A stretch of DNA of 23,734 nucleotides, taken from a virus. Positions 1-22,591 of the stretch are shown here, piece after piece. The position numbers and the translations under genes are program-made. How positions within the stretch are numbered: the first letter of the stretch is position 1; each line of letters opens with the position of its first letter. The stretch covers positions 1-23,734 of IMG/VR virus record IMGVR_UViG_3300031565_000378. The stretch is one strand, 5' to 3'. The notes beneath the pieces were generated by a model that saw nothing but the letters and a program-made list of their open reading frames with translations, did not search any database and was not told the origin of the DNA.

Positions 1-457
1 ATGCCTTACTCCAAAGAATTAAACCAAGTGTCCATCTTGCCATTTTTCTTATCCCAAAAGGCGTGGCTTTAACAATTTCTTCGAGTTTCGGATGTCTTTT
101 ACCTGTTCTTTGTTCCCATATCTTCAGGGCAACGAGTGTGTAAATGTAGTGGTCACGACTCATTCTTGCTCCGAGTTGATACCACTTTTTATCTTCATTT
201 TCCACGTAATCAGGATGTCTAATCCCCACTAATTTATTCTTAAATTCTGGTCTTTTTTGCCAAAGATTTACGATTCCGTCAATTAATTCTGGGTCATCAT
301 AAATTATGTATGTATCTGTTGTGCGACCAATTGCATCACCAATTCCTTTATTTGATGAATATGTTACGGCAAGATTATACTCGTCAATATAAAAGTATGC
401 AATATCATTTGTTGCATCTGGGTCATATATCCCAATAATTAATTTATCTTCAGCCAT
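1..457 (-). CDS. hypothetical protein, 3' end outside window
   Basis: The frame opens at an ATG at 455-457 and stays open to the window edge, giving at least 152 residues beginning MAEDKLIIGIYDPDATN. The start overlaps the stop codon of the upstream gene (TAATG arrangement), so the two are probably translationally coupled. The visible part mixes acidic and aromatic residues, and its second half is basic and Trp-rich (for example WYQLGARMSRDHYIY, then KIWEQRTGKRHPKLEEI). There is no signal peptide or membrane segment. I do not recognise the family. It is the last visible member of the leftward run of small genes that begins near 3900. Confidence 0.75.
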   Translation of the reverse strand, partial: MAEDKLIIGIYDPDATNDIAYFYIDEYNLAVTYSSNKGIGDAIGRTTDTYIIYDDPELIDGIVNLWQKRPEFKNKLVGIRHPDYVENEDKKWYQLGARMSRDHYIYTLVALKIWEQRTGKRHPKLEEIVKATPFGIRKMARWTLGLILWSKA

Positions 458-15463: not shown

Positions 15464-15518
15464 GTGTTCTACTTTATTTTTGGGACATTGGATAAAAAGT
15501 AGTAAAAAACCCTAAAAG

Positions 15519-15591
15519 TGACCCCGGTGGGACTCGAACCCACGACCTCCGCATTAAAAGTGCGAGGCTCTACCAACTGAGCTACAAGGTC
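15519..15591 (-). tRNA. tRNA-Lys(TTT), second copy
   Basis: Acceptor GACCTTG with CGGGGTC (two G-U pairs), D arm GCTCAGTTGGTAGAGC, anticodon stem TCGCA/TGCGG with loop CTTTTAA (TTT), T arm GTGGG-TTCGAGT-CCCAC and discriminator A. It is unrelated in acceptor and D arm to the Lys(TTT) gene at 15393. Confidence 0.92.
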
Positions 15592-15607
15592 ATCACATAT
15601 CGACTGT

Positions 15608-15692
15608 TGGTCATCAGACGGGACTCGAACCCGTGCGCAGGGATTATTGATAGCATGTGCTTTCCCTTGCTCTGCCAACTGAGCTACTAATG
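15608..15692 (-). tRNA. aberrant tRNA with a 19-nt anticodon loop and encoded CCA
   Basis: Everything except the anticodon loop is canonical: D arm GCTCAGTTGGCAGAGC, anticodon stem AGGGA/TCCCT, 4-nt variable loop, T arm ACGGG-TTCGAGT-CCCGT. The anticodon loop is 19 nt (15644-15662 on the plus strand) instead of 7 and contains AGC-ACAT-GCT. The acceptor stem is best drawn as 6 bp (CATTAG/CTGATG) followed by A and an encoded CCA, the only one noticed in the window. If drawn with 7 bp, the first pair is G-A. A perfect 10-bp helix (15597-15606 with 15693-15702) brackets the whole gene. No standard anticodon can be assigned. Confidence 0.6.
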
Positions 15693-15737
15693 CAGTCGAT
15701 ATGTCTACTCACTCCACTACTTGCCTCAACTACTAAC

Positions 15738-15872
15738 TTACCTTACTAATGTGTTTCCAATCATCGTGCCTGTCAGAACCTTCCTCTGCTCACGCTTTTT
15801 ATGGTTGCCCATGCTATCGTTACACTCAAACCTTTCACACATTTTCCAATAAACTTTTATATTGGTTTTCAT
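15738..15872 (-). CDS. 44-aa basic small ORF upstream of tRNA array 2
   Basis: The ORF reads MKTNIKVYWKMCERFECNDS, then a basic middle (HKKREQRKVLTG) and ends NTLVR. The net charge is strongly positive, with two Cys. It lies between the direct repeats at 15909-15979 and the aberrant tRNA at 15608. No clear promoter was found within the repeats. The real coding status is uncertain; it is the best frame in a 280-nt gap. Confidence 0.4.
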   Translation of the reverse strand: MKTNIKVYWKMCERFECNDSMGNHKKREQRKVLTGTMIGNTLVR

Positions 15873-15908
15873 TTCGCTTTCAAATCTTCATCATTTCAAA
15901 TAACTTTG

Positions 15909-15979
15909 GGGTAATAAACGTTTTTCACAGAACTTTTTAATTTATAACAGTCTTTCACGGGTAATAAACGTTTTTCACA
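15909..15979 (-). repeat. two exact 21-bp direct repeats, 50-bp period
   Basis: The repeat (GGGTAATAAACG then TTTTTCACA on the plus strand) occurs at 15909-15929 and 15959-15979 with a 29-nt unrelated spacer. The second copy runs into the U-run of the terminator at 15979-16008. With only two copies and no cas genes it is not a CRISPR. It may be paired protein-binding sites or duplicated promoter-like sequence. Confidence 0.7.
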
Positions 15980-16008
15980 AAAAAAACCCGACTCTTTCGA
16001 ATCGGGTT
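15979..16008 (-). terminator. rho-independent terminator after the 29-aa ORF
   Basis: The stem AACCCGA/TCGGGTT with a 10-nt loop is followed on the minus strand by about eight T. Confidence 0.82.
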
Positions 16009-16035
16009 CCTCTGGTGGTCATAAAGTCATTACTT

Positions 16036-16666: not shown

Positions 16667-17752
16667 TTAAGTTACATACTCATAACCATCCTTAAACGGC
16701 TTACTGTAAACTGGTCTTATCTGTTTCCAGATAATTTGACCATATGGTTTTCTATCATATAATTTGAATAGTATTGAACGATACTCCGATGATTTTGCTT
16801 GTTCAGCAAACAAAGCACGGTCTTTTATATCATTAATATGGTAGATTCTTATGAATTCCTGTAATGCTCGTCTTTCGATTTCAGCATATTCAGCAATTAA
16901 CTTAGCTGCGGTTCTCTTCAACCAGTCAAAGAACTCATCTGGAACCCGGTCCAGTAATTCATCGAACTCATAGTTATCTCTCAGGTGTTCCCAAACCGTG
17001 AGGTTGGAAACATTTGTCAAGATACCATGTAATCTAACGTATTCACTGAACTTCACTTTCACCCGGAAACCATTTGCAAAACGAATCACAAATCCTTCCA
17101 TATTATCTTCTTCAAGTGCCTTGAGGTCATTTAGGTTCCTAATATTCTTTATATCGTGCAACTTCACAACAGTGAAATAGTTAGAATATAATGAAGTTAT
17201 TTCAGAATGACTTAGTTCATCAGCAGTTGAACTTACGATTACAGAAAGTAAAACAAGGTCTCTCCTGTCACCATAATCCACAACAATACGATTCTCAGGA
17301 TAAAGCACTTCAAATAAATAAGTACAATTTGTATTCAAATGTTTGAACACATTTATATTAAGCATTTTCTTTGCTTCGATTGACTGCTCAGAGATAAATG
17401 AACCTCTTGAAGCCACAATCCATATCATACGTGGTTCGTAATAAAACACGATGATTAGTGAACCATCCATTTTTTCGTAAATCACGAATGGCTGCGACAT
17501 ATCAATTTCCGATGGCAGGTGTTCTTCGTAGTTCTTGAACTTCTGGAAAGGACGAGCCAGAATTTTACCATCAGCATCAATCACCATTCCACGACAAGAC
17601 ATAGTGTACTCGTCCCAAAACTTCTTTGATTGAGCTTTAGGTGAATAGTTGAGTATCCACAAGTCGTATTCTGGATGCTTATTAGCAACTATCAGACTCT
17701 GTTCAATGTAAGTGTTCAAGACACTCCAACTGATTTTTTCCAAGATTTTCAT
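16667..17752 (-). CDS. T4 Rnl1-type RNA ligase
   Basis: The 361-residue ATP-dependent ligase joins RNA 5'-phosphate and 3'-hydroxyl ends. The covalent nucleotidyl-transferase motifs are in order: motif I EK94-MDGSL with Lys94 as the AMP acceptor, Arg54 in CRGMVIDADG upstream, RGSF (motif Ia-like, 117), motif III YLFEVLYPENRIVVDYG (E148), motif IV MEGFVIRF (E219) and motif V VKVKF (K232, K234). The order and spacing match T4 RNA ligase 1 (active-site Lys99, similar length), and the C-terminal helical domain fits tRNA recognition. In T4 this enzyme, with polynucleotide kinase-phosphatase, reseals tRNAs cut in the anticodon loop by host defence nucleases. No kinase-phosphatase is in the window. 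The stop of the upstream gene coincides with its ATG. Confidence 0.92.
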   Translation of the reverse strand: MKILEKISWSVLNTYIEQSLIVANKHPEYDLWILNYSPKAQSKKFWDEYTMSCRGMVIDADGKILARPFQKFKNYEEHLPSEIDMSQPFVIYEKMDGSLIIVFYYEPRMIWIVASRGSFISEQSIEAKKMLNINVFKHLNTNCTYLFEVLYPENRIVVDYGDRRDLVLLSVIVSSTADELSHSEITSLYSNYFTVVKLHDIKNIRNLNDLKALEEDNMEGFVIRFANGFRVKVKFSEYVRLHGILTNVSNLTVWEHLRDNYEFDELLDRVPDEFFDWLKRTAAKLIAEYAEIERRALQEFIRIYHINDIKDRALFAEQAKSSEYRSILFKLYDRKPYGQIIWKQIRPVYSKPFKDGYEYVT

Positions 17753-22174: not shown

Positions 22175-22238
22175 GCAGTTTTTATCCACTTTATATAAAC
22201 TAAATTTTTTCATAAATAAATGATTTTAAACATTTTAG

Positions 22239-22591
22239 TGGAGATGCGGGGAGTCGAACCCCGGTCCATACATGTGACCAATAGGCTTTCTACAAGTTTA
22301 TTCTGTTTTTCTAAACAGACGAAATATCAACCCTTTCTTATCAGTACAGTTGAGTTACTGACTCAGTTTACCCTTCTGAGGTCGGGGTTCTTTGCTGTTT
22401 TTATTGCTTCCTATACTGCAAATGCAAGTTCAGCGTTACTTGCGAATACACTTTTGCCTCTCGTAAGAGACGTTGGAATAGACATTATGTCTTCTGCACT
22501 TATTGTTTTGAACCTTTTTAACGTAGTCTGATTCAACTACCACTTGCTTACGTTATCGCTCTGACACGCTGTCAAAACCAAAACCATCCCC
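22239..22591 (-). ncRNA. ssrA: transfer-messenger RNA (tmRNA)
   Basis: The gene is 353 nt, a normal length. Its ends form the tRNA-like domain: GGGGATG at the 5' end pairs with CATCTCC, followed by discriminator A. The T arm is CGGGG-TTCGACT-CCCCG with the bordering TATGGAC seen in one-piece tmRNAs, and a reduced D-like region (GGTTTTGACAG) follows the 5' end, so there is no anticodon. The message encodes a short tag ORF ending TAG at 22411. CCA is not encoded. It tags and frees stalled ribosomes in trans-translation together with SmpB (expected from the host). It sits between the 87-aa gene and the MazG-like gene. Confidence 0.93.
22411..22443 (-). CDS. tmRNA tag peptide ORF
   Basis: The in-frame segment GCA AGT AAC GCT GAA CTT GCA TTT GCA GTA TAG gives ASNAELAFAV, 10 residues as in many bacterial tags. 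The sequence before it (AAAAGTGTATTC) fits the position of the resume trigger, and GCA is the usual first codon. The hydrophobic end LAFAV differs from the common LAA. An alternative resume codon 15 nt upstream (GGC at 22456-22458) would add GKSVF; the GCA choice is favoured because the hairpin CTCTTACGAGAG precedes it. Confidence 0.7.
   Translation of the reverse strand, partial: ASNAELAFAV

Follow-up and report, generated by a model that had tools for sequence, protein, structure and literature searches.

A candidate class of structured phage RNA with an integral, non-decoding tRNA-like domain whose enlarged anticodon loop is predicted to pair with an upstream core

A locus next to the tRNA genes of a metagenomic virus very probably encodes a previously uncatalogued class of structured non-coding RNA in which a tRNA-like domain that does not decode is an integral part of the fold; this identity and the architecture given below are derived from comparative sequence analysis. 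To date, members of the class come from two groups of metagenomic phages rich in tRNAs. The source DNA is a 23,734-nt stretch of virus record IMGVR_UViG_3300031565_000378, the whole of which is called the window here. A preliminary description of this DNA had placed an otherwise normal tRNA with a 19-nt anticodon loop at 15597–15702. The feature does lie there, but the conserved element runs well past it, to about position 15882. Among the readings offered at the time, that of a non-decoding tRNA-like RNA is the one that the present results support, extended to a larger RNA with no conserved register, acceptor or CCA.

The tRNA-like fold with its 19-nt anticodon loop is real. The Rfam tRNA model (RF00005) matches 15610–15693 (−) with 38.3 bits, above its cut-off of 29, and leaves 19 loop residues unmatched; ARAGORN misses the domain in its default mode and finds it once a 12-nt insert in the anticodon loop is allowed. 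From 5′ to 3′ the domain consists of ACATATCGACTG-CATTAG-TA-GCTC-AGTTGGCA-GAGC-A-AGGGA-AAGCACATGCTATCAATAA, continued by TCCCT-GCGC-ACGGG-TTCGAGT-CCCGT-CTGATG-ACCAA-CAGTCGATATGT. These arms are canonical, as originally described: GCTC pairs with GAGC in the D stem, AGGGA with TCCCT in the anticodon stem and ACGGG with CCCGT in the T stem, and the variable loop has 4 nt. The parts of the domain are as follows.

15610–15693 (−): tRNA-like domain, comprising D and T arms, an enlarged anticodon arm and a 6-bp acceptor-like stem (Rfam, 38.3 bits; D, anticodon, T and acceptor helices 94–100% paired in six sequences)
15595–15606 (−): 3′ arm, CAGTCGATATGT, of the 12-bp basal helix that closes the domain (sequence; of 11 pairs counted, 6 are doubly changed among the homologues)
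15693–15704 (−): 5′ arm, ACATATCGACTG, of the same helix (sequence and pair counts)
15607–15611 (−): ACCAA, a 5-nt bulge that separates the acceptor-like stem from the basal helix (position conserved, CCA not conserved)
15644–15662 (−): 19-nt anticodon loop AAGCACATGCTATCAATAA (19–22 nt in group-1 homologues, 20–25 nt in group 2)

The inverted repeat that brackets the domain is present and perfect, but it measures 12 bp (15595–15606 with 15693–15704), not the 10 bp first reported. Residue 15693 belongs both to this repeat and, as position 1, to the supposed tRNA, so that the acceptor comprises 6 bp only (CATTAG/CTGATG), with position 1 (G) facing A, and a 7-bp stem ending in a discriminator and CCA is absent. 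The 1–72 mismatch is found in most of group 1, and the group-2 acceptor consists of 3 bp and an internal loop. The letters previously taken for an encoded CCA fall in the 5-nt bulge, where relatives carry AACCA, AACAA, AATAA, ATAAA and AAATA. The D and T loops keep tRNA residues, the elbow being the preserved part of the domain. Across the nine homologues there is no constant U33, anticodon or U33–anticodon–purine register, and the isotype assigned by ARAGORN varies between them (Ile, Lys, Ala, Leu).

Related phages were fetched via the adjacent Rnl1-type ligase gene. The same element occupies the same place in L038/L051 and L046/L059, with stem sequences that differ yet remain paired, and a pattern search for the long loop added L098. 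Searches with the upstream block alone gave five viral contigs, of which L138 and L140 were new, and all have a long-loop tRNA-like domain alongside. Relaxed to its core hairpin, with the loop not used, the block yielded three members (L141, L142 and L143) that belong to a second group of tRNA-rich phages. The homologue sample comprises nine phage contigs, all metagenomic, with one copy each: the window and five relatives (L051, L059, L098, L138 and L140), which form group 1 and alignment A5, and the three contigs of group 2. Since the same layout, with compensatory changes, recurs in all nine, a chance resemblance is excluded.

The core model R2 gives exactly one strong match (69–90 bits) in each of these nine records and none above 20 bits in 25 others. 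Model R1 scores ordinary tRNAs at 15–52 bits, and only matches above 85 bits were counted as the element. A first blast of the window region matched ordinary tRNAs, and the one match inspected (H10) has nothing annotated there. The flanking 15-mer ATGCAGTCGATATGT gave 37 matches, and five of the longest records among them hold no match to R2. Two pattern matches, L144 and L145, were rejected: they have neither a tRNA nor a tRNA-like domain and look protein-coding. Two pattern scans through the genomes of about 85,000 species of bacteria and archaea did not find the element, and blastn with the near and distant homologues tested gave no match in isolate phages and plasmids.

The predicted RNA runs, from 5′ to 3′, through the rod helices, a core-closing helix, the core hairpin (loop GGAAGGN) and the return strand of the rod to the tRNA-like domain, which stands on its own 11–12-bp stem. 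In the alignment of the upstream DNA, conservation extends over about 180 nt beyond the tRNA-like domain and takes in AGCAGWGGAAGGNNCTGACAGGCA, and the spacing between core and tRNA-like domain is almost constant within group 1. Nearly all sequences (six listed) have internal loops in the rod with GAA on the 5′ strand opposite AGTA on the 3′ strand, which we take to be the signature of a loop E/sarcin–ricin-like module. The elements of the larger RNA and its closest neighbors are given below.

15593–15882 (−): full extent of the conserved RNA, about 290 nt with approximate ends (six-sequence alignment A5 and structure counts; three more distant homologues)
15711–15882 (−): rod of short helices, 15871–15877/15711–15717, 15864–15866/15723–15725 and 15848–15854/15736–15742 (pair counts)
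15837–15843 (−): 5′ arm, AATGTGT, of the core-closing helix, pairing with 15748–15754 (3 of its 7 pairs doubly changed)
15748–15754 (−): 3′ arm, ACACATT, of the core-closing helix (pair counts)
15766–15793 (−): hairpin of the conserved core, CAGA-GGAAGGT-TCTG, with GTG/CAC as closing pairs (pairing of 100% across the nine sequences, with 3 of the 7 pairs doubly changed)
15807–15818 (−): core strand GATAGCATGGGC, the partner of the loop (pairing and covariation counts)
15649–15660 (−): loop strand GCACATGCTATC of a long-range helix, pseudoknot or intermolecular (11 of 12 positions pair with 15807–15818; 10 double-change cells; 0 of 500 shuffles)
15518–15591 (−): tRNA-Lys(UUU), immediately downstream of the RNA, where the ordinary tRNAs of the cluster begin (ARAGORN)
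15982–16012 (−): hairpin CCCGATTCGAAAGAGTCGGGTTTTTTTT, resembling a terminator and assigned to the preceding transcript (conserved in the group-1 upstream alignment)

The predicted structure has 12 helices, one of them long-range. RNAalifold returned a single nested structure for the six group-1 sequences, with 29 doubly changed pairs. With the loop–core helix added, the structure holds 72 pairs with both sides changed at 36 of them (59 cells), and 94.0% of cells are paired, a percentage biased upward as part of the structure counted was predicted from the same alignment. None of 500 shuffles was as good on any of five measures for this 72-pair structure in the six sequences, and pairing falls to 30–43% when partners are slid by 1–3 columns. 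Folded singly, the sequences have unremarkable minimum free energies (z of −1.03 and +1.48). The pair counts refer to group 1; the group-2 comparison covers the core, the loop and the tRNA-like domain.

The long loop itself is predicted to engage in a helix. In the window, GCACATGCTATC is complementary to the core strand GATAGCATGGGC at 11 of 12 positions, and homologues pair different sequences at the same place: TTTGCTATT/AATAGCAAA in L098, TTTGCGATT/AATCGCAAA in L138, TTGCGTAT/ATACGCAA in L059 and, from group 2, ACGTTGCAAAGCTA with TAGCATTGCAGCGT in L141. The helix is 11–13 bp long across the sequences. Taken alone, it is 92.4% paired with 10 double-change cells, and none of 500 shuffles equaled it on pairing or covariation. 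The energies of the cognate loop–core combinations are the best of all 720 reassignments, with a single tie that involves two near-identical sequences. In group 2, loops of 20–25 nt are complementary to the core in all three members (shuffle p of 0, 0.0005 and 0.005 for L141, L142 and L143, respectively). The exception is L051, in which the helix is poor at the usual place (−5.4 kcal/mol, p = 0.26) and the best alternative partner, 10 bp located 13 nt further 5′, is not significant. The comparison thus points to a loop–core pairing that covaries in group 1, L051 excepted, and is held in group 2. Its simplest reading would be a pseudoknot formed in cis, as opposed to an intermolecular helix.

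The RNA heads the phage tRNA-Lys/Tyr cluster. In group 1 it comes after the conserved terminator-like hairpin and lies within about 20 nt of the tRNA-Lys that follows, and in L143 the RNA directly follows a tRNA. The stretch GTTCTTTRAAA precedes the RNA in four group-1 members and, imperfectly, in the window (4–5 of the 6 sequences); it also lies just upstream of the tmRNA genes in relatives L108, L114, L120, L127 and L136. It resembles the boxA of rRNA operons, and its presence before both the RNA and tmRNA genes fits a stable-RNA transcript. The same distribution suggests antitermination in phage stable-RNA operons. Upstream of the RNA, the window also contains an exact direct repeat, GTGAAAAACGTTTATTACC, at 15910–15928 and 15960–15978 (−), and L138 has similar sequence.

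Several other genes of these phages are unusual in their own right. In three relatives, tRNA-Leu(UAA) carries a 21-nt anticodon-loop insert (CTTA^...^AAA; L054:4783–4890, L060:4762–4869 and L074:5108–5215) whose fold, a small hairpin, persists despite sequence change; the gene is intact in the window and other relatives, and the insert is possibly a short tRNA intron, independent of the long-loop RNA. Within the Lys/Tyr cluster, another tRNA-like gene (L060:13766–13879 and L058:13124–13236) has an anticodon loop of roughly 46 nt that holds a covarying 7-bp hairpin, CTACGTG/CACGTAG versus CTGCTTG/CAAGCAG. Further oddly shaped tRNA calls in relatives have putative loop insertions of 36, 5 and 3 nt (L102:5669–5795, L106:12018–12096 and L130:734–810, respectively). 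Finally, the ribonucleotide reductase at L098:4366–8121 has 1251 amino acids versus 845 in the window, and the additional part resembles an intein.

On balance, we favor a model in which an entire tRNA fold has become a structural and effector domain, fastened to a loop-E-rich core by its enlarged anticodon loop as docking strand, so that the RNA would act on host translation or RNA-processing machinery as a fixed tRNA mimic or as a subunit of an RNA assembly. The 5′ rod with its repeated GAA/AGTA internal loops ends in the core hairpin (loop GGAAGG), and the 3′ part is the non-decoding tRNA-like domain on its long closed stem. Docking of the loop on the core via the 11–13-bp helix would hold this domain in a fixed place, and a cut by RNase P would free the RNA from the downstream tRNA. 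The RNA would then display a tRNA elbow, made of the D and T loops, with no usable acceptor end or anticodon. Such an elbow could bind and redirect a tRNA-handling factor, e.g. the ribosome, an RNase or a tRNA-modifying or tRNA-cutting enzyme, in the course of infection. Mimicry toward such a factor is the likeliest function, which we put forward tentatively, followed by assembly into homo-oligomers.

In the latter case, the loop–core helix would be intermolecular and the tRNA-like domain would be a subunit contact in a cage or fiber, as in GOLLD and ROOL. The complementarity is real, and it would read the same in the sequence for pairing in cis and in trans. ROOL and GOLLD are structured RNAs of phages and prophages that lie near tRNA islands and form nanocages, GOLLD sometimes with linked tRNAs (PMC12286853). 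Many GOLLD members exceed 800 nt (PMC12286853), however, far more than the about 290 nt seen here, and neither family has a match at this locus in Rfam at E up to 10. We consider oligomerization possible but rather unlikely.

An arrangement akin to YrlA is more doubtful. In YrlA, a tRNA-mimicking domain sits on a stem closed by the 5′ and 3′ ends, and Ro60, YrlA and PNPase form one machine (PMC8394870). By analogy, the closed stem of the phage RNA would be a protein site and its tRNA-like domain would recruit an RNase. The general plan is the same, and the window encodes an RNA ligase and two vWA-type proteins, which parallels the Salmonella RNA repair operon where rsr/Y RNA genes sit with a ligase (PMC8394870). 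On the other hand, the vWA proteins of the window have no TROVE domain, and Ro60/TROVE (PF05731) was not found in 17 phage records, a search that a host-encoded partner would escape. Furthermore, YrlA is 90–150 nt long (PMC8394870), and no Rfam YrlA or Y RNA model matches at E up to 10.

Ligase-mediated repair beside tRNA genes is familiar from T4, and the RNA could be a decoy for anticodon nucleases or other tRNA-targeting defense toxins, with the Rnl1 ligase as a second defense. This is improbable. The ligase gene noted in the preliminary description is genuine and lies upstream:

16667–17752 (−): T4 Rnl1-type RNA ligase (PF09511, E = 1.2e-20)

The RNA is located between this gene and the tRNA-Lys/Tyr genes, and its D and T arms are tRNA-like. 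However, the loop offers no conserved U33 or anticodon for nuclease recognition and is predicted to be base-paired. The link between ligase and RNA is weak: because R2 counts show the RNA to be absent from most ligase-bearing relatives, the ligase is not a dependable partner, and in group 2 the two are unlinked, only one record having a ligase gene, about 69 kb from the RNA.

Excision of a 12-nt insert to give a decoding tRNA, essentially the tiny insertion proposed earlier, is contradicted by the comparative data and very unlikely. It draws on the ARAGORN report of a tRNA with such an insert, on the ligase gene near the locus and on the 21-nt insert in the separate tRNA-Leu(UAA) gene of three relatives. 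Against it stand (i) the isotype call and the U33–anticodon register, which shift between homologues, (ii) the acceptor, which is degraded in group 2 and in several sequences has A72 opposite position 1, and (iii) the covariation of the whole loop with an upstream strand. In addition, no EndA-type splicing endonuclease (PF01974) was found in 16 phage records, which are fragments; the search detected it in 4 archaeal controls.

Still less probable is that the upstream conserved block encodes a short protein (MCERFECND... in the window). A frame of 30–40 codons from ATG-TGT-GAA is open in the window, L051 and L138, but stops or indels break it in L098, L059 and L140, no reading frame is common to the six group-1 sequences, and substitutions track base pairs, not codons. 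Decay of a tRNA gene, which a normal 7-nt loop in relatives had been expected to betray, can practically be discounted despite the poor acceptor stem and low tRNA score, as compensatory changes keep the helices and all nine homologues, from two phage groups, have loops of 19–25 nt and none of 7 nt.

In Rfam scans of the window locus, L143 and L141 at E up to 10, the tRNA domain is the only significant match, and a search of open-access literature found no description of this RNA. The 5′ part of the group-2 RNA in L141 (1256–1305, −) has a full-length weak match to the Rfam Zeta-pan model (23.9 bits, E = 0.037, cut-off 56.7). RNase P RNA was considered for its superficially similar GAGGAAGG motif and dropped, no RNase P model having matched in the scans.

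The reasons why large phages carry many tRNAs are debated, and a few large RNAs of unclear function, GOLLD and ROOL, cluster with these genes. The present RNA would add a smaller, well-delimited class with a built-in tRNA mimic, with which the idea of tRNA mimicry in phage–host conflict can be tested. Long-loop “odd tRNAs” in phage annotations may likewise be pieces of larger RNAs.

The RNA shares with GOLLD and ROOL its nature as a structured non-coding RNA of phages or prophages close to tRNA islands. It differs from them in length (about 290 nt versus many hundreds), in matching neither Rfam family, and in having a modified tRNA-like domain that is integral to its fold and covaries with it. 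With YrlA it shares a tRNA-like domain carried by a stem in which the two ends pair, represented in the phage RNA by the basal helix and the D and T arms, but it is about twice as long, has a large rod and a predicted loop–core helix, and comes with neither an Rfam YrlA match nor a TROVE partner in the records searched. To our knowledge, YrlA has no loop–core helix or large rod. The likeness to tmRNA lies in a stable RNA of phages or bacteria with a tRNA-like domain, long-range pairing and, in these phages, a boxA-like stretch before both genes. The phage RNA instead carries an arm of the anticodon type, lacks a charged acceptor end and has neither a tag reading frame nor a tmRNA model match at its locus, and the true tmRNA of the window is encoded separately at 22236–22591 (Rfam match). 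Finally, as in ordinary phage tRNAs (RF00005), it has a D arm, a T arm, a variable loop and the characteristic D- and T-loop residues, and it passes the family cut-off; in contrast to them, it has a 19–25-nt loop with no anticodon, a degenerate acceptor, a CCA that is not conserved, and a structured 5′ domain fused to the tRNA-like fold.
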